Shown: positions 3,741-11,789 of the stretch, in pieces
Layout of the letters: the number at the start of each line of letters is the position of its first letter
How positions within the stretch are numbered: position 1 is the stretch's first letter
From: Chloroflexota bacterium
GTDB lineage: Bacteria > Chloroflexota > Anaerolineae > JAAEKA01
Assembly (NCBI GenBank): GCA_034717495.1
Contig: JAYELL010000077.1
Span: 1-64,000 of the forward strand
DNA length: 64,000 nt
Direction of reading: 5' to 3'
Made by a program: the position numbers and the translations under genes
Notes under the pieces: model-generated
Database searches by the model: none
The model's input: the letters and a program-made list of their open reading frames with translations, nothing else
Told to the model about the DNA's origin: nothing

Positions 3741-5003
3741 TCAGTCCCGTTTGAACTTGGAGTAATCGGGAGCCCGGTATTTGCTTACGCCAACCCCAGC
3801 GATATCGAGCATCGCCTCGACCTTCATGGGCAATCCGTAGAGCTTGATAAAACCCTCAGCATCCTGCTGATCGTACACATCCTCGTCGCCGAAAGTAGCG
3901 AAGTCCTCACGATAGAGCGAATAGGGTGAGCGTCGTCCAACCACAAGACAATTGCCTTTGTAAAGCTTGAGCCGCACGCTGCCGGTCACATTGGCCTGAG
4001 TAGCGTCCACGAAAGCATCCAACGCCTTGCGCAATGGGGTGAACCACAACCCGTTGTACGTCAGTTCAGCGTACTTCAATGCGACCTGCAGCTTGAAGTG
4101 CAAGGTCGATTTGTCCAGGCACAGTTCCTCCAGCGCTTGATGAGCCGCGTAAAGAATGGTGCCACCAGGCGTCTCGTAGATACCATGGGATTTCATGCCC
4201 ACCAGGCGATTCTCCACCAGATCAACCCGACCGATCCCGTGTTTGGCGCCGACCGCGTTCAGATTGTCCATCAGGCTGATCGGTCCCATGGCAACGCCAT
4301 TCAACCGTTTGGGATACCCTGACTGGAAATCGATAGTAACCTCCTCCGGCCGGTTGGGAGCATCCTCTGGGCTCTTGCTCCAGAGAAACATAGTCTCTTC
4401 CGGCTCATTCCAGGGATCTTCCAAAAGCCCACCCTCGTGGCTCAAATGCCACAAATTGCGATCCCGGCTATAGATCGACTTTTCGGAAGCGGCCACAGGC
4501 ACGTTATATTCGGCTGCATAGTCCAGCGCATCCTCTCGACTGCGAATCGTCCACTCTCTCCAGGGCGAAATGGTGCGCAAGCGCGGATTCAAGGCCATCA
4601 CAGTCAGCTCAAAACGAACCTGGTCGTTGCCCTTCCCTGTACAGCCGTGGGAAACGGCATCGGCGCCCTCCAACTCAGCGATTTCCACCATCCGCTTGGC
4701 GATCAGCGGCCGCGCCACGCTGGTACCCAGGAGATATTTACGTTCGTAAACAGCACCGGCGCGCATCATGGGATAGAGGTAATCGCTAATGAATTCCTCG
4801 CGCAGGTCCTCGATGTAGATCTTACTGGCGCCTGATGCTATCGCTTTTTCTTCAAGACCCTCCAACTCTTCATCCTGGCCCAGGTTGGCTGTGAAACAAA
4901 TCACGTCGCAGCCATAGTTGTTGCGTAACCAGGGCACGATTACAGAGGTATCCAGGCCGCCCGAGTAGGCGAGAACGACCTTTTCGATTTCTTGTTTCGT
5001 CAT
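3741..5003 (-). CDS. argG: Argininosuccinate synthase
   Basis: Condenses citrulline and aspartate with ATP to argininosuccinate in the arginine pathway. The N-terminal ATP pyrophosphatase loop [10 protein letters not shown] (residues 13-22) and the body motifs [11 protein letters not shown] and [19 protein letters not shown] are diagnostic. At 420 residues it is close to the family norm of about 400. It ends the minus-strand arginine gene series, behind the permease gene; an AGGA lies 9 bases before the ATG. argF and argH are not in the window. Confidence 0.97.
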
Positions 5004-5044: not shown

Positions 5045-5155
5045 TCAAGGCGAATATCCGGTAGAGTGCCGATCATAGTCTTCGGCTGTCCTGCCAAAAT
5101 CGATCTGGCGATGTACGTTTCCCAGGCCGATCAGCAACAGGTCGCGGGTTTCCAT
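5045..5155 (-). CDS. Possible 36-residue ORF coupled to the permease gene
   Basis: A short frame starts with an ATG that shares its A with the permease stop codon (TGATG) and ends 42 bases before argG. The product begins METRDLLLIGLGNVHR. The GLGNVxR piece resembles the start of a dinucleotide-binding fold such as homoserine dehydrogenase, but the frame stops after 36 residues, so it could be a remnant of such a gene or chance. Coding status is uncertain; only the coupling arrangement argues for translation. Confidence 0.3.
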   Translation of the reverse strand: METRDLLLIGLGNVHRQIDFGRTAEDYDRHSTGYSP

Positions 5156-6462
5156 CAGGTTACAGGCTCCTCCGCACCCTGATCATCATCCCCAGGCGTG
5201 AGGATCTCCGGAAAATCCTCCAGTCCCACGGCTCCCTCGTCAGATGCATCTGGTGCGGCTAACACAGGCACCTGACTTCCCTCCCCCATGCCAGTTGTTT
5301 CTGGAAACGGGGGACGATCGTTCAGTTTGGAATGAGCGTAATCAAAGAATATCTTGACTGAAGCTAACGTCGGCGCTGCCAAAAATGCACCAAGGATTCC
5401 ACCTGTTGCCGTACCGGCGATCACCCCCACCAGGACGATCATCGGATGCAGATTAAGACTGGTTCCAATGATACGCGGCACAAGCAAGTTGTTCTCCAAC
5501 TGTTGGATCAACACGTAAGCTGCAATGACAATCAGAGCAAATACAGCGTTATTGATATCCCAATGAGTGGAACCTTGTATCAATGCCAGCACCACGGCAG
5601 GAACGGCAGCCATGATGGGACCCAGGTTGGGCACGACCTCGAGAACGCCGGCAAGCAGCCCAAGTACGAAAGCGGCAGGCAAGCCCAGAATCAATGCCAC
5701 AATGAAAGTAACAACCCCTACCGTCAACGACAGAACAAGCTGGCCCCGGAAAAAGGAGTCCCAGACTATTTGCAGCCGAAAAAAGAGAATTTCCCACTCG
5801 GGCCAGGCGCCCTCCGGTGCGATTGACTTCAGCCAGGAACGCAGCTTGGGTCCATCCTTGGTCAGGTAAAAGGTAAACATGAGCAGCAATATCGCGCCCA
5901 GGGCAGCCCCGAACAAAAGAGCCATCGCGTCGGTCAGCACAACGGCAGCAGTGCCCAATAACCCTTTTGCTGCCTTTGCACTTTCCACCAGATAGCCTAC
6001 GATCTCACCTATGGAAGGTACAGATGCCTCCTGAATAGCCTGACTGATGGTTCGCTCCAGCGAAATCAGGGCATCTCCCAAATCGACATCGTAGCCACCA
6101 ACCGCAAAATCGGGAATCAACGCGGCTATCTCAGGCACCTCCCGATCGAAAAGCCGGGGAATCTGGGCCAATGCACTGAGAATTTCCGCAACGCCTTCGA
6201 TCACCCACGGCGTTACGAGGACCGGGACCAGGGCAGCCAGAAGCACGATCAAGAGCACGCATATCGCCGCAGCCACACCGCGAGGCATCCGACCTTCGAG
6301 ATGACCCACCAGGGGTTGAAAAATGTATGCCAGGACGGCTGATAATGCCAGGAGTGACAGCATGGATCGGGCCAGATAGAGCAAGAGAACTGCCCCGATC
6401 AGTATCACGACAACGACGATCCGTTTGGTATCCCGTGTCCAGGTGTTGGCGTTTTCGGACAT
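5155..6462 (-). CDS. AI-2E family transporter (PerM-like membrane protein)
   Basis: About 435 residues. Two membrane segments occupy residues 10-55, a further one is near 60-85, an extracytoplasmic or amphipathic stretch covers about 95-190, and several C-terminal helices follow around FIVALILGLPAAFVLGLLAG and LEVVPNLGPI; this is the layout of the AI-2E/PerM family. An acidic tail ends the protein. Substrates in this family are varied and unproven here; some members act as sodium-proton antiporters or exporters. The ATG at 6462 was chosen over 6489 because it leads straight into the polar head. It sits between the NAGS and argG genes, so it is probably co-transcribed with arginine synthesis. 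Confidence 0.85.
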   Translation of the reverse strand: MSENANTWTRDTKRIVVVVILIGAVLLLYLARSMLSLLALSAVLAYIFQPLVGHLEGRMPRGVAAAICVLLIVLLAALVPVLVTPWVIEGVAEILSALAQIPRLFDREVPEIAALIPDFAVGGYDVDLGDALISLERTISQAIQEASVPSIGEIVGYLVESAKAAKGLLGTAAVVLTDAMALLFGAALGAILLLMFTFYLTKDGPKLRSWLKSIAPEGAWPEWEILFFRLQIVWDSFFRGQLVLSLTVGVVTFIVALILGLPAAFVLGLLAGVLEVVPNLGPIMAAVPAVVLALIQGSTHWDINNAVFALIVIAAYVLIQQLENNLLVPRIIGTSLNLHPMIVLVGVIAGTATGGILGAFLAAPTLASVKIFFDYAHSKLNDRPPFPETTGMGEGSQVPVLAAPDASDEGAVGLEDFPEILTPGDDDQGAEEPVT

Positions 6463-6589
6463 TGAAATGCAGGTACCCTTCTGTAGCACCTAAGCGACTG
6501 CTATTCCGCTGTGGGGGAGCAACCAGACCGTTTTCTGGCTGAACCGCAGCGATTCGATTATATCGCAGACAACCGCAATATACCAGCGT

Positions 6590-7156
6590 CTACAGCAGCA
6601 GGGAACCAAGTCGACGCAAGACGGGCAAGGGCACGCGCCGGGCCAGGGTGGTCCACCGGGGGGATAGTTCCATAGCCTGACCTGGTTCTTCCAGATGAAT
6701 CAGGACAGCAACTTCATCGCAGCGGTGAAACTTGGGGCAATAAACGCATTCGCTCCAGATCTTTGGGGTCAGGGTCCAGCGATCAACCACGTGAAAGCCG
6801 GATCTCTGAAAGAGACGGGGGCGTAAGGTGAGCGCGCAGACGTGGTCGAGCTCACGCTCGCGCGCCAATTCCAGCAGGGCGGCCACGAGCCTGCCGCCCA
6901 GGCCATTGCCCTGAAAGGCCTCCGCGACCGCCACTGAACGGATTTCGGCCAGCCCGACAGTCAAGGCAACCAACGATCCGCAAGCGATGATGGTATTGTC
7001 ATCTTCGGCTATCAGGAAATCGGCAAGTACCGATGACACCTGAGCTTCGCTCCGGGGTAACATGCGATTGCGGGCAGCGAAGCTGTTCACCAGCTCGGAT
7101 ATGGCAGGAACGTCGGCCCCGATGGCAGGCCGGATGTTGATTTCGTTCAAAAACAC
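6590..7156 (-). CDS. argA: Short-form N-acetylglutamate synthase (GNAT family)
   Basis: 188 residues of a GNAT acetyltransferase. The opening IRPAIGADVPAISELV with MLPRS, the acetyl-CoA loop region EAFQGNGLGGRLV, and the late Cys pattern SECVYCPKFHRC are typical of the short stand-alone NAGS enzymes that make N-acetylglutamate, the first step of arginine synthesis. Position directly after argD supports this. No argJ is present nearby, so this enzyme may supply all acetylglutamate unless argJ lies elsewhere. The C-terminal 30 residues after the Cys motif are unusual. It could be a different GNAT, but context and motif agree. Confidence 0.82.
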   Translation of the reverse strand: MFLNEINIRPAIGADVPAISELVNSFAARNRMLPRSEAQVSSVLADFLIAEDDNTIIACGSLVALTVGLAEIRSVAVAEAFQGNGLGGRLVAALLELARERELDHVCALTLRPRLFQRSGFHVVDRWTLTPKIWSECVYCPKFHRCDEVAVLIHLEEPGQAMELSPRWTTLARRVPLPVLRRLGSLLL

Positions 7157-7175: not shown

Positions 7176-8360
7176 TCATAGCTGTGAAAAGACCGTGGAA
7201 AGACGCTCTACCACCAGGTCGATCTCCTCTCGCGAAATAATCAGCGGGGGTACCAGACGGAGCACATTGGCGCCGGCACCCACAGTCAACAGGCCTTGTT
7301 CGTGCCCCGCTTCGACGACGGTCGAAGCAGGGATATCCAACTGGATTCCGATCAGCAAACCCTGGCCTCGAATCCCTTCAATATGAGAGCTGTTGATTTC
7401 AGAAAGACGGTCGAAAAAATAGGCGCCCTTCGCCCGAACATCCGCCAGAAACTCAGGCTGGCTGATGCGCCCGACAACCGCTTCAGCAACCGCGGCCACC
7501 AGAGGGCCGCCGGCAAAGGTGCTGGCATGGTCGAAGGCATGAATTGCGCCGGCGACCTGGTCGGTCATAAGGATTGCCGCCATGGGCAGGCCTCCCGCCA
7601 GGGGTTTGGCAACTGTGAGAAGATCGGGAGAAACTCCGTATCCCTGATATGCCCACAGATGCCCGGTGCGGCCCAGCCCACACTGAACCTCATCGAATAT
7701 CAGCAAGGAGTCGTGAGTGTCGCATAGCTCCCGGAGTCCTTTCAGAAAACTGGCTTCGGCTGGCAGAATACCAGCCTCTCCCTGTATAGGTTCCACGATC
7801 ACCGCGCAGATCGAGTCGTCGATCTCTCTTGCCGCGGACGCCAGGTCGTTGAAGCGGGCAAAGCGAACGCCGGGCATCAGGGGCTCAAAGGGTTGCCGGT
7901 ACCTGGGCCGATCGGTGGCTGCCAGGGAACCGAAAAGGCGGCCATGGAAACCACCGCTAAAGGCGACAATTGTGGATTTATCCTTGCCGTGCTGTTCGCG
8001 GGCATAACGGCGTGCGAACTTGAAAGCACCCTCGTTGGCGCTGGCGCCGCAATTGGCGTAATGCACCTTGTCGGCAAAGCTGGTTTCGCACAGCAACTTC
8101 GCCAGCCGGGCCTGGGGAGCGGTGTGATACAGGTTGCTGACGTGCCATAGCTTTCCCGCCTGTTCGGTCAACGCCGCCAGGCTCGCTGGGTCCCCATATC
8201 CCAGGGAATTCACAGCAATGCCGGCAACGCAATCGAGATACTCCTTGCCTGCCGAGTCGAAGACTCGACAACCTTCCCCTCGCTCCAACACGAAGTCGGG
8301 GCGAGCGTATACCTGCAGGACATAGTTCTTTTCCAGATCGATCACAGTTTGGCTTTCCAT
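7176..8360 (-). CDS. argD: Acetylornithine aminotransferase
   Basis: 394 residues, class III PLP aminotransferase. The cofactor motifs are visible: NCGASANEGAFKFARR (phosphate-binding region), FDEVQCGLGRTG, and LTVAKPLAGGLP with the PLP-binding Lys; canonical ArgD has AKGLGGG here, so the Pro is a small deviation. Converts N-acetylglutamate semialdehyde to N-acetylornithine. The ATG at 8360 (MESQTVIDLEK) was preferred; the frame stays open upstream to 8612 but that part overlaps argB. It sits 56 bases behind argB and 19 bases before the NAGS gene. Confidence 0.95.
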   Translation of the reverse strand: MESQTVIDLEKNYVLQVYARPDFVLERGEGCRVFDSAGKEYLDCVAGIAVNSLGYGDPASLAALTEQAGKLWHVSNLYHTAPQARLAKLLCETSFADKVHYANCGASANEGAFKFARRYAREQHGKDKSTIVAFSGGFHGRLFGSLAATDRPRYRQPFEPLMPGVRFARFNDLASAAREIDDSICAVIVEPIQGEAGILPAEASFLKGLRELCDTHDSLLIFDEVQCGLGRTGHLWAYQGYGVSPDLLTVAKPLAGGLPMAAILMTDQVAGAIHAFDHASTFAGGPLVAAVAEAVVGRISQPEFLADVRAKGAYFFDRLSEINSSHIEGIRGQGLLIGIQLDIPASTVVEAGHEQGLLTVGAGANVLRLVPPLIISREEIDLVVERLSTVFSQL

Positions 8361-8416
8361 CAATCCTTCACTCCTTGCCACATCGTTACGCAGTCCCGCG
8401 GCAGCGGGGTAAGCGG

Positions 8417-9202
8417 CTATCCAACAACGACGGCGGTGCCGCGGCCGCTTCGTAAGCCAGCGATATCGGTGATCACAGCCTGATGCACACCGTTCATAAC
8501 GGCTTCGGAAGCCGAGCGCACCTTGGGCACCATGCCACCATTGATACGACCCTCGGCCACGTGGCCTTCTACTTGCTGCGCGGTCAGTTCGGACACTGGC
8601 ATCGAATCCCAACTATCCAGCATGACACCCGGCACGTTGCTTACAAAGACCAGCTGCTCGGCTTCAAGGGATGCCGCAAGGGCAGCGGCCACCTGATCGG
8701 CATTGACATTGTAGGACTGCCCGTCAACCCCCAGGGACAGGGGAGAGACCACCGGCACGATCCCGGCATCCAGCAGTGCCCACAGTTTTTCGACCCGCAC
8801 CTCAACAACCTTTCCAACATAACCGATATCAACGCCTCTGGGCCGAAGGGGCTGCACCCGGATCAGGCCCAGGTCAACGCCGCTCAAGCCCAGAGCGTTA
8901 ACGCCGCCGTTGACCAGCCAGCGGGTCACCCGGGTATTGACAGCCCCGCTCAAGACCATCTTGACCAGGCGCAGACTGTCAAAACTGGTGACTCGCAAGC
9001 CCTCGACAAAGTCAAAGGGAACGCCCAGGCGGCCATGCAGGTCGGCAATCTCCTTGCCGCCGCCATGAACGACAACGACGTTGGACTGTTCACTGATAGC
9101 CTTGACTGCTGCAACGAGTTCAGCCAAAAAGCTGTCGTCGTCTATCTCGTTTCCGCCGACCTTCACAACGATGACTTGACCAATTGTATCACAGGTGTTC
9201 AT
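8417..9202 (-). CDS. argB: Acetylglutamate kinase
   Basis: 261 residues of the amino acid kinase family. Motifs are VVKVGGNEIDD near the start, VVVVHGGGKEI (glycine-rich ATP/substrate loop), YNVNADQVAAALAASL, and the C-terminal GGMVPKVRSA. Phosphorylates N-acetylglutamate, normally the arginine-feedback point of the pathway. Start at 9202 is supported by AAGGA 8 bases upstream; an alternative ATG at 9226 is less well placed. Members with the HGGGKEI form also occur as LysZ in the amino-adipate lysine pathway, but the argC-argB-argD context favours arginine. Confidence 0.93.
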   Translation of the reverse strand: MNTCDTIGQVIVVKVGGNEIDDDSFLAELVAAVKAISEQSNVVVVHGGGKEIADLHGRLGVPFDFVEGLRVTSFDSLRLVKMVLSGAVNTRVTRWLVNGGVNALGLSGVDLGLIRVQPLRPRGVDIGYVGKVVEVRVEKLWALLDAGIVPVVSPLSLGVDGQSYNVNADQVAAALAASLEAEQLVFVSNVPGVMLDSWDSMPVSELTAQQVEGHVAEGRINGGMVPKVRSASEAVMNGVHQAVITDIAGLRSGRGTAVVVG

Positions 9203-9309
9203 GGAGAGATCCTTGTGGTTTTGCATTCATACAGCCACACGAGGTTTCAGCGGATTCAGGCGCTTCAAACCATACCGTAGACAAGTTGGCCGATGCGCCA
9301 GGCACTGGA

Positions 9310-10347
9310 TCATGGCAGCCCCAGCGTCTCGTCCAGACCAAATACAACATTCATGTTTTGCAACGCCTGTCCAGCGGCCCCTTTGAGCAGATTGTCGATG
9401 CTGCTGGTAATGATCAGAGTTCGGGTACCAGGCACCGGAGTAAGCCCGATGACACACCGGTTGGATCCGGCCGAATGCTTCATAGTAGCAGGCTCAATGC
9501 CAGGCAGCACCTGCACGAAGGGTTCCGTTTCATAGGCTACCCCAAAGGCAAAGAACAGATCGGCCTCGCCGACACCTTCTGGCAGAGTCAGATAGATCGT
9601 CGACAGGATACCGCGGCTCACCGGGACCAGGTGGGGAGAGAAAATAAACCGCGGCTTGCCTGAAGCGGTGGATAGGACCTGGCTCATACCACCGCCAAAG
9701 GAGAGTTCCTGTTCCATCTCTGCAATGTGCCGGTGGGCGTAACCGATGCTATAGGGCGACAGGTTTTCGTTGGCCTCGACGAAGCTGGTCATTAACTTAG
9801 GTTTCCGCCCGGCACCACTGACGCCCGATTTGCTATCCACGATCACTTGCCCCGAGAGCCAACCCAATTGAGCCAGGGGCCATAGCGCCAGAATGACACT
9901 GGTCGGATAACAGCCAGGATTGGCCACCAGCTCGCTGCCAGCGATCTTATCCCGGTAAAGTTCAGGCAGACCATAGACCGCCTCGGCCAACAGATCTTTC
10001 TCGGTGTGTGGCGTTGCATACCAGTGCTCATAGGCCATAGGGTCGCGCAGGCGAAAATCGGCGCTGAGATCGATCGCCTTGACACCTGCCTTGCGCACGG
10101 TCGCGACTGCCTTCATGGAAGCTGCATGGGGAAGACAAACAAAGACCAGGTCGGCTTTGGTCAGGGGTGCCCTTGCCAGCGGTAACAGTGGATCGTGCCA
10201 GGAACAGGGATAGACCTGGGAAAGTGTCCGACCAGCGTAACTTTCCGAGGTCAGCCAGGCAAGTTCCACTTCAGGGTGGCCCCGCAACAGTTTGACCAGT
10301 TCGATGCCTGTATAGCCTGTCGCACCGATGACACCTGCTCGTATCAT
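9310..10347 (-). CDS. argC: N-acetyl-gamma-glutamyl-phosphate reductase
   Basis: 345 residues. N-terminal NADP fold MIRAGVIGATGYTGIELV, and the catalytic Cys in NPGCYPTSV; the C-terminal half has HRHIAEMEQEL with the usual catalytic His region. Reduces N-acetylglutamyl phosphate to the semialdehyde. First gene of the arginine operon; GGAGGAATTGC precedes the chosen ATG at 10347. Its 5' leader contains a promoter, a short Arg-containing ORF and a terminator hairpin ending about 15 bases before the start codon, so expression is probably controlled by attenuation. Confidence 0.96.
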   Translation of the reverse strand: MIRAGVIGATGYTGIELVKLLRGHPEVELAWLTSESYAGRTLSQVYPCSWHDPLLPLARAPLTKADLVFVCLPHAASMKAVATVRKAGVKAIDLSADFRLRDPMAYEHWYATPHTEKDLLAEAVYGLPELYRDKIAGSELVANPGCYPTSVILALWPLAQLGWLSGQVIVDSKSGVSGAGRKPKLMTSFVEANENLSPYSIGYAHRHIAEMEQELSFGGGMSQVLSTASGKPRFIFSPHLVPVSRGILSTIYLTLPEGVGEADLFFAFGVAYETEPFVQVLPGIEPATMKHSAGSNRCVIGLTPVPGTRTLIITSSIDNLLKGAAGQALQNMNVVFGLDETLGLP

Positions 10348-10361
10348 GCAATTCCTCCAAC

Positions 10362-10387
10362 AAAAAAAGCTCTCCATCTGGAGAGCT
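10362..10387 (-). terminator. Rho-independent terminator (attenuator) in the argC leader
   Basis: On the minus strand AGCTCTCC, loop AGAT, GGAGAGCT forms a perfect 8-bp hairpin followed at once by seven T residues. It lies between promoter and argC, not after a gene, so it must act as an attenuator or be bypassed. TCCAGAT (10382-10376), which overlaps the 5' arm and loop, can pair with GTCTGGA (10436-10430) just after the leader ORF stop, giving an alternative fold. Confidence 0.85.
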
Positions 10388-10436
10388 CAGCCGCAGTCAT
10401 CAACCTTGAAAACCGGCCCATGCCAACCATCCAGAC

Positions 10437-10490
10437 TTACGTCCGGGTCATGACATCAGGCCTCCTGGGGAAGTACAAAGTTGTGTTCAT
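10437..10490 (-). CDS. Candidate arginine leader peptide (17 aa)
   Basis: ATG to TAA frame encoding MNTTLYFPRRPDVMTRT, with three Arg codons (tandem AGG AGG at codons 9-10 and CGG at codon 16). The predicted transcript start lies only about 8 bases upstream, so translation would be leaderless or nearly so; no clear ribosome site is seen. GTCTGGA, the putative antiterminator strand, directly follows the stop codon. That arrangement is what ribosome-mediated attenuation needs: stalling at Arg codons would leave it free, termination at the stop would mask it. Confidence 0.55.
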   Translation of the reverse strand: MNTTLYFPRRPDVMTRT

Positions 10491-10504
10491 GATTGTTGCT
10501 CGGG

Positions 10505-10533
10505 GTTATAGCATAGAATTACAGGGCTGTCAA
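10505..10533 (-). promoter_or_regulatory. Sigma-70-type promoter of the argC operon
   Basis: TTGACA at 10533-10528, 17-base spacer, TATAAC at 10510-10505 on the minus strand: a near-consensus promoter. It lies just beyond the stop codon of the preceding gene and about 160 bases before argC. Confidence 0.85.
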
Positions 10534-10580: not shown

Positions 10581-11789
10581 CTAATCCTGATCTTCCTGCA
10601 GGGTGAAATCGGCCTCCATCGGCTCATTGAAGCCCTCTGGACCGTCAGACGACGCATCCGGCTCATCGTCCACCGTCGTGGATCTCCCTCGTTTTCTGTC
10701 AGGCGACCTCACGGTGGGGCGCCGAAGCCGTAAGGGAACTATCCTGGGAATGGCACGCGCGATGCGTCCTGTGGTCGTCTGCTCGGAGCCTTCCTGGCGG
10801 ACGCTGTTCACTAGTTCGGCTGAATATTCCCGGCCCCGCGCTACTGCCTCGGCGAAGACCTCCCGCAGCGCATCCCCTTCCATCCTTACGCCGGTGACAT
10901 ACCACTGGTAGACCATCTGGCCGATGGCGTAGGTTCCGGCGTAGGCAATGCCAACTTTGGGTACGAGGCCGATTCCAGGCAGCAAGCCCACCAGCGAGCG
11001 CGCCATCTGTCGCCAGATGAATCCGAATCCTACCACCGCTGCCAGTTGGGGAATCACCTCCCTGGCGGTACCGGTTTCGCCCATCAGAAGGCCGATCTTG
11101 TAAGCCAGCAATAGCTGATTCTTGGTGAGAACGATGCTATCGGCGACCGTTAGAGGAATCAACAGGCCGGGAACCAGTTCACCAATGCCTGTGCCAAAGG
11201 AGTAGGCAGCATTGGTTACCGAGGTATCGTTGACCAGCTTTTTGGCCACTACCGGTCTCAGCGCCGGATAGGCGCGAGCGAGCGCAACCTCTCGATCGGG
11301 GAATGCCGCCACGATTCGGGGATACAGGATTTCCTCAACCTCATCCGGATCATCCAGAGCACAGACCACAAAACTCTGAGCGAGCGGAATCGAATCTTCA
11401 ACACCAAAGCCGGCAGCTGCCAGCACCTGTTGGGCAAGGATATGGGGTTTATCCAGTACCAACAGCGTATTCGGCGACTGAGCCACAAGGTCAGTCATGG
11501 TGGAGGTGCGCAACTGATCAAGGCTGTCAAACAGAACCAGCACCAGGTCGTACCGGGCAAGGGTAGAAATCTCGTCCCGGGCCGGATCCAACCGGTACAC
11601 AGGCGCAGCCGTGATTGGTTGTCCTATCGCGTGGGGACCTTGTTGAAGCATAGCCTGCAATGCAGCTACCTTGTCGGGCGGGCCCAGGAGAGCCAGACGC
11701 GGCAGGAGCAACGCCTCATCGCGCAGCGACATCAGATCAATCTCCCCCAACATCTTCCAGATGTGTCCAACACTAGTCCATGATGCCAT
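10581..11789 (-). CDS. DUF697-like / GTPase-associated membrane protein
   Basis: 402 residues. The first part (about 30-160) looks like a nucleotide-binding-fold remnant with hydrophobic strands (YDLVLVLFDSL, NTLLVLDKP) but no P-loop. The middle (about 190-310) contains hydrophobic helices, including ADSIVLTKNQLLLAYKIG and GLLPGIGLVPKVGIAYAGTYAIG, which match the DUF697/YcjF-like helical domain. The tail is basic then acidic and probably disordered. The family is often linked to Era-like GTPases; none is next to it. Function unknown. It ends 48 bases before the argC promoter. Confidence 0.65.
   Translation of the reverse strand: MASWTSVGHIWKMLGEIDLMSLRDEALLLPRLALLGPPDKVAALQAMLQQGPHAIGQPITAAPVYRLDPARDEISTLARYDLVLVLFDSLDQLRTSTMTDLVAQSPNTLLVLDKPHILAQQVLAAAGFGVEDSIPLAQSFVVCALDDPDEVEEILYPRIVAAFPDREVALARAYPALRPVVAKKLVNDTSVTNAAYSFGTGIGELVPGLLIPLTVADSIVLTKNQLLLAYKIGLLMGETGTAREVIPQLAAVVGFGFIWRQMARSLVGLLPGIGLVPKVGIAYAGTYAIGQMVYQWYVTGVRMEGDALREVFAEAVARGREYSAELVNSVRQEGSEQTTTGRIARAIPRIVPLRLRRPTVRSPDRKRGRSTTVDDEPDASSDGPEGFNEPMEADFTLQEDQD

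Follow-up and report, generated by a model that had tools for sequence, protein, structure and literature searches.

The window, by which we mean the whole 64,000-nucleotide stretch analysed here (contig JAYELL010000077.1 of assembly GCA_034717495.1, from a Chloroflexota bacterium of the class Anaerolineae), carries on its minus strand a run of arginine biosynthesis genes in the order argC-argB-argD-GNAT-permease-argG, located 3' of a short leader. The first gene after this leader is argC, which starts with an ATG at 10347 and has its own ribosome-binding site. The genes are listed below.

9310..10347, minus strand: argC, N-acetyl-gamma-glutamyl-phosphate reductase (TIGR01850, 374.6 bits)
8417..9226, minus strand: argB, acetylglutamate kinase (TIGR00761)
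7176..8612, minus strand: argD, acetylornithine transaminase (TIGR00707)
6590..7156, minus strand: GNAT acetyltransferase (NF005840 above cut-off, NF005921 below cut-off)
5155..6489, minus strand: AI-2E family transporter, within the arg gene run (PF01594)
3741..5003, minus strand: argG, argininosuccinate synthase (NF001770)

The true start of argD probably lies downstream of the start of the listed ORF, and the GNAT acetyltransferase is possibly an N-acetylglutamate synthase. Upstream of the leader, positions 10581-11789 (minus strand) encode a 402-residue protein that has no match in Pfam or NCBIfam. No second leader was seen in the 151 bases preceding argG, and the source genome (G000; 5.0 Mb, 95.6% complete) contained no convincing further copy of the leader cassette; one candidate, at G000:C51:75908, was rejected, as it has neither a suitable short ORF nor a T run.

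Organization of the argC leader

The region between 10533 and argC contains the following elements, the RNA segments being numbered in order of transcription.

10528..10533, minus strand: -35 hexamer TTGACA (read directly in the sequence)
10505..10510, minus strand: -10 hexamer TATAAC (read directly in the sequence)
10437..10490, minus strand: leader ORF of 17 codons, MNTTLYFPRRPDVMTRT (read directly; position and Arg richness kept in relatives)
10461..10466, minus strand: tandem Arg codons AGG AGG, codons 9 and 10 (read directly)
10443..10445, minus strand: third Arg codon CGG, codon 16, within segment 1 (read directly)
10441..10446, minus strand: segment 1, CCGGAC, partner of segment 2, with a GUAA loop (pairing counts in the alignment)
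10430..10436, minus strand: segment 2, GTCTGGA, adjoining the stop codon (2:3 pairing counts; own-versus-foreign test)
10376..10382, minus strand: segment 3, TCCAGAT, which pairs with segment 2 in the antiterminator (pairing tests)
10415..10462, minus strand: 1:2 anti-antiterminator rod, -25.2 kcal/mol (fold, z -3.2)
10362..10388, minus strand: intrinsic terminator, 3:4 hairpin of 9 bp and T run (fold; compensatory changes)

An earlier sequence-only reading of this locus had proposed a near-consensus promoter, and TTGACA-17 nt-TATAAC indeed agrees with the consensus at 11 of 12 bases; the promoter scan of this region of the window did not list it, because the scanner requires a T at the last base of the -10 hexamer, which here is C. 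In most relatives, too, the leader ORF is preceded by TTGACA or a close variant of it and a spacer of 16-18 nt. Direct reading bore out the 17-codon ORF with AGG AGG and CGG at 10490-10437, its Arg codons being codons 9, 10 and 16, as well as the claim that GTCTGGA (10436-10430) follows straight upon its stop codon, TAA at 10439-10437. The ORF has no Shine-Dalgarno sequence, and its ATG lies 14 nt past the -10 hexamer; it is thus near-leaderless.

The same reading had described an 8-bp hairpin with seven T directly before argC. The hairpin, with the core AGCTCTCC-AGAT-GGAGAGCT (10387-10368), and the seven T (10368-10362) are both present, but the first T of the run is itself paired, the only point on which the described features needed correction. 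One terminator is found in the leader region against 0.2 expected from shuffles, and its fold has a z of -3.3. Segment 3 overlaps an arm and the loop of this terminator and can, as had been claimed, form 7 bp with GTCTGGA, one of them G-U. That reading had overlooked segment 1 as well as the extended 1:2 rod, which starts at the second AGG codon and is equalled by the fold of 1 of 200 shuffles. Since segment 1 pairs with segment 2, the leader comprises four segments, as do the trp and his leaders. The features by which attenuators are recognized are thus found together: a short leader ORF with clustered codons for the amino acid of the pathway, a 3:4 terminator and a 2:3 antiterminator that exclude each other, and a 1:2 anti-antiterminator that overlaps or adjoins the specifier codons.

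Within the window alone, the 2:3 pairing (-13.6 kcal/mol, p 0.14, z -1.7) does not exceed chance, whereas the terminator and the 1:2 rod do. The antiterminator pairing proposed from the sequence finds its support in the comparison across relatives and not in the window by itself, and it is on this conservation that the case rests.

Conservation of the pairings

Orthologues of argC are present in most of 100 genomes of the class, in which 54 argC upstream regions were read; the MAG contigs may be chimeric or contain indels (L010). Leaders were sought by a blind rule: once promoter and terminator had been placed, the first ORF with an ATG start (or, failing that, GTG) was accepted whatever its content. 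Promoter and terminator were obtained by this rule in 46 of the 54 regions, the other eight not yielding the two together. One ORF was retained per genus, giving 35 genera from 22 families.

Pairing of the stretch between Arg codons and hairpin with the 5' arm of the terminator was better than in shuffles (p<0.05) in 18 of 32 genera, and the combined Fisher value over the 32 genera was 9e-17. Each leader paired better with its own arm than with foreign ones, on average by 2.9 kcal/mol over 32 genera and by 3.7 kcal/mol over 22 families (p at most 5e-5); when arms were swapped between genera, the observed value was reached in none of 20,000 permutations. For 1:2, 98.8% of the cells were paired in an alignment of 14 sequences and 97.2% in 47 cassettes, and for 2:3 the figure was 95.9% in the alignable group of 14; sliding the structure by one column in the 14-sequence alignment left about 55% or less of the cells paired. 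Changes in the 2:3 helix of the aligned group were one-sided only, because segments 1, 2 and 3 constrain one another. The terminator displayed compensatory changes at all eight modelled pairs among 47 cassettes, in an alignment fitted to the model, which favours such an outcome.

These results bear on the idea that a ribosome does stall in the leader while control is exerted through Rho-dependent termination or RNA decay, which has a precedent in orf34-speF of Salmonella, a known leader with Arg codons that works in this manner (PMC6386406). The cassette, however, has a strong intrinsic terminator, whose pairs are subject to the compensatory changes just described, and its segment 2 pairs more favourably with the arm of its own terminator than with foreign ones; we thus consider control of that kind highly improbable.

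Conservation of the Arg codons and of their spacing

Arginine makes up 19.6% of the residues of the leaders from the 35 genera, compared with 12.6 ± 1.5% in shuffles treated by the same rule, and at least three Arg within six codons occur in 24 of the 35 genera, as against 19% in shuffles (maximum 40%, 300 rounds), a null that is severe because the shuffles keep the Arg-shaped composition. Examples of conserved leaders are MSQNINIRFYRRRPTPLKVVLGNLCS, MFFNAIPRRRRSRRPVTNEVSSGFLR and MSTLADALFIRRRRPDSFHGLAWCVA. MAGs of Caldilineaceae and Anaerolinea also have the leader (e.g., DYEI01000233.1, Anaerolinea sp.), as do argC loci in other Chloroflexota classes (L146, L147 and L152), while the same script found no such leader at argC loci outside Chloroflexota. 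The leader of L016 contains one Arg only. The codons used are mixed (CGC 37, AGG 36, CGT 36, CGA 21, CGG 14, AGA 4), and hence it is the amino acid, not a DNA word, that is kept. Comparison among relatives, which the sequence-only reading had named as its check, thus finds the ORF, its Arg codons and the antiterminator pairing maintained in 22 families.

The AGGAGG of the window could also be taken for the Shine-Dalgarno sequence of a tiny ORF encoding MS or MTRT, in which case the Arg codons would be accidental and the element a plain terminator with a short frame: AGGAGG lies 4 nt before ATG TCA TGA and 9 nt before ATG ACC CGG ACG TAA, and the 17-codon ORF is without such a sequence of its own. 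However, this position is occupied in relatives by runs of CGC, CGT or AGG; sequences such as CGT CGC, CGC CGC and CGA CGA, which are found there, constitute no Shine-Dalgarno and yet preserve Arg. In the related cassettes described below, the position is taken by Lys or Pro codons. With the Arg codons varying between AGG, CGC and CGT, AGGAGG is not a conserved Shine-Dalgarno sequence, and this explanation, rejected in the main on account of the relatives, retains almost no credibility.

The spacing of codons, stop and segments likewise agrees with an attenuator. The distance from the end of the last specifier codon to segment 1 has a median of 4 nt and stays within 12 nt in 49 of 51 cassettes. 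In 49 of 52, the stop codon is found from -6 to +9 relative to where segment 2 begins, a placement at which a terminating ribosome would mask segment 2, as is expected of an attenuator; for these counts the ORF richest in the specifier residue was chosen under a loose limit on stop position, a rule by which L200, L249 and L235 were misassigned. A stalled ribosome reaches about as far as 12 nt, as known from toeprints. From the spacing of codons and stop it follows that a stalled ribosome would cover segment 1 and a terminating ribosome segment 2. The window departs slightly from this pattern, in that its AGG AGG ends 14 nt before segment 1; since CGG lies inside segment 1, stalling at CGG may matter as much as stalling at AGG AGG, which may not fully open the inner hairpin with the GUAA loop, 14 nt further on.

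A family of cassettes with interchangeable specifier codons

The 100 class genomes were searched with a covariance model (R1) trained on nothing but 14 argC leaders, whose E-values are rough; the genes behind the cassettes were named by NCBIfam, and the residue type of each leader was assigned without sight of the downstream gene. Besides the leaders of argC, the model found others: matches 5' of argG or argG-argH contain Arg codons (MPVWFIRARRNRFRRPDHPSG), those 5' of lysW/lysX/lysY or homocitrate synthase operons contain Lys codons (MRTLLLLVKQIKRGKKPDLWSG, VGIANFKKQSKKQKPDRRVW), and those 5' of proS, which is either the next gene or separated from the leader by one or two others, contain Pro codons (MPMRLPSPPEPEKPDRRSG, MLGFPLPCPIPRSFPAPGSG). 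The residue that was highest or tied was Arg at 28 of the 30 Arg loci, Lys at 19 of the 25 Lys loci and Pro at all 11 Pro loci. Close relatives are not independent, and counting by genus or family was confined to argC, where it was done as far as possible. The summed cognate count was 209, compared with a mean of 111 and a maximum of 173 in 100,000 permutations (p at most 1e-5). The leader peptides share the ending (K/E/R)PDxxSG-stop, which is the conceptual translation of the hairpin CCGGAC...GTCTGG(A/G)TAG. With a wider model (R2), Lys and Arg cassettes were also found in genomes of other Chloroflexota classes, so that the family spans at least two classes of the phylum. Four model matches (L213, L216, L217 and L244) were judged false.

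We consider it likely, from the comparison of these sequences, that one homologous chassis radiated within Chloroflexota into sensors of Arg, Lys and Pro (perhaps also Gln) through exchange of nothing but the specifier codons next to an unchanging segment-1/segment-2 hairpin, and that in these classes the resulting sensors would serve instead of ArgR and of dedicated lysine or proline sensors. That the hairpins form an arginine-binding riboswitch with an incidental ORF, as the strong conservation of CCGGAC/GTCTGG might suggest, is scarcely credible and was rejected, since the hairpin stays constant while the codons switch between Arg, Lys and Pro along with the gene, meaning that codons and not hairpin carry the specificity, and since no Rfam family matches the leader.

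Cassettes with Lys codons preceding genes of the alpha-aminoadipate route of lysine synthesis include L189, L191, L196, L198, L201, L206, L214, L215, L225, L250 and L251. Two Lys cassettes in tandem 5' of the same operon occur at L199 (318-438 and 496-609), L221 (2464-2586 and 2665-2782), L224 (383-483 and 528-647) and G086:C103 (3660-3925). Cassettes with Pro codons before proS include L203, L208, L209, L210, L211, L218, L234, L235, L240 and L246; a metallophosphoesterase gene or others stand between leader and proS in some of them. A Gln-rich cassette, MTPHTRTSQQRGQQQPDRRSG, precedes a gene for a LysE/RhtB-like exporter in another Chloroflexota class (L255:1501-1620). We also would like to mention a Pro-/Gln-rich leader, MLAVLQPLPYKRPQPQPPKWAAG (L241:2561-2670 and L245:2636-2745, minus strand), which is followed by a relative of NifV-like homocitrate/isopropylmalate synthases of uncertain function.

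Searches for ArgR, T-boxes and known leader families

The sequence-only reading had named ArgR control as the alternative that could explain regulation of this operon. When looked for with PF01316, ArgR was absent from all 100 class genomes, that of the source included; the same search gave matches in nine control genomes and in 41 of 201 genomes of the phylum, none of the 41 belonging to this class. Neither finding that would have overturned the sequence-only reading, loss of the leader features among relatives or control by ArgR, was thus obtained. No Rfam family matched the leader at its curated threshold, the three sub-threshold matches being all at chance level (for Phe_leader, 15.3 bits with a cut-off of 55), and the T-box covariance model had no match in the window.

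Proposed mechanism

The element very probably subjects the arginine operon to ribosome-mediated attenuation of transcription, as a member of a family with interchangeable Arg, Lys and Pro specifiers. The parts of the leader, their conservation, pairings and geometry and the match between codon and gene are read from the sequence, and from these we infer as follows where transcription starts, that the ORF is translated, and how stalling, termination and read-through come about. RNA polymerase would begin some 7 nt upstream of the ATG of the 17-codon leader, which a ribosome would start translating immediately. Given abundant arginyl-tRNA, this ribosome would reach the stop codon adjoining segment 2 and cover segment 2, whereupon the 3:4 terminator would form and transcription end before argC. 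With arginyl-tRNA short, it would halt at AGG AGG or CGG and cover or break the 1:2 rod, allowing segment 2 to pair with segment 3; no terminator would then form and transcription would continue into argC and beyond. If the leader were left untranslated, the 1:2 rod would form and termination would ensue. Read-through would thus probably take place only at arginine shortage.

Relation to known systems

The classical attenuation described so far concerns few amino acids and comes mainly from Proteobacteria and Actinobacteria, and to our knowledge gene control has hardly been studied in Chloroflexota. The leader shares with the his, trp, leu, thr, ilv and phe attenuators of Proteobacteria a leader peptide with clustered codons for the end product, the 1:2, 2:3 and 3:4 alternatives, a stop codon beside segment 2 and a terminator before the first structural gene, and it differs from them in its Arg specificity (Lys and Pro in relatives) and in being near-leaderless. 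By its proposed mechanism it is a classical attenuator; new are its specificity, the taxon and the interchangeable design. In a 2013 survey of RNA regulons that included five Chloroflexi, the Rfam attenuator motifs were only those for His, Leu, Thr and Trp, beside which Ile/Val and Phe attenuators are known, and a gamma-proteobacterial origin was suggested (PMC3766115). In the leaderless leaders of Actinobacteria (trpL, leuL, ilvL and alaL of Streptomyces), transcription similarly starts at or close to the ORF, downstream of which hairpins are found; they differ in specifying Leu, Trp, Ala, Ile, Met and Thr, in preceding other genes and in that the paper describing them reports no common chassis (PMC8079986).

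Sensing of arginine through Arg codons of a short ORF is also performed by orf34-speF of Salmonella and rbfL-rbf of Staphylococcus aureus (PMC6386406; PMC13009471). Differently from the Chloroflexota leader, orf34 acts via Rho, RNase G and the speF ribosome-binding site (PMC6386406), rbfL blocks the start of translation (PMC13009471), and neither controls arginine biosynthesis or uses an intrinsic-terminator switch. Control of arg genes by ArgR/AhrC repression or by T-boxes fulfils the same physiological task as proposed for the Chloroflexota leader. A screen for premature terminators does not mention arginine (PMC2965389), and no Arg attenuator of arginine biosynthesis was found in the open-access literature searched.

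The family would extend attenuation to arginine biosynthesis, to lysine synthesis via the LysW route and to proS, and it suggests how arginine synthesis may be controlled in a class that lacks ArgR. As the chassis is constant and the codons vary, it also provides a natural set of sensors in which codon identity can be tested against switch specificity.

Variant argC upstream regions

Several argC loci depart from the arrangement described above. At L019 an in-frame TAG separates the leader ATG from the Arg run, where the sister L021 has CAG, which points to decay of the leader or else to an error in the sequence. In another class, L148 and L150 have a conserved ORF of 28 residues (MFTRFLKFLRRLGQIHPAVIAIAPDRTW and MFTRILAFLRRLGQIHPAVIAIAPDRTW) 5' of argC without a terminator. 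L159, from another Chloroflexota class, contains before argC, at 183-227, what resembles the 3' part of a T-box (RF00230, sub-threshold at 18.7 bits, E 0.063), possibly a third mode of argC control in the phylum. Finally, the Arg-rich ORFs upstream of argC in L009 and L160 (MMAQRKRRSSPRWRAFF... and MARKSNLALSFLRREMRGRERVF...) have the terminator hairpin inside their coding part, an arrangement that suggests a less elaborate switch, with the hairpin blocked directly by the stalled ribosome.
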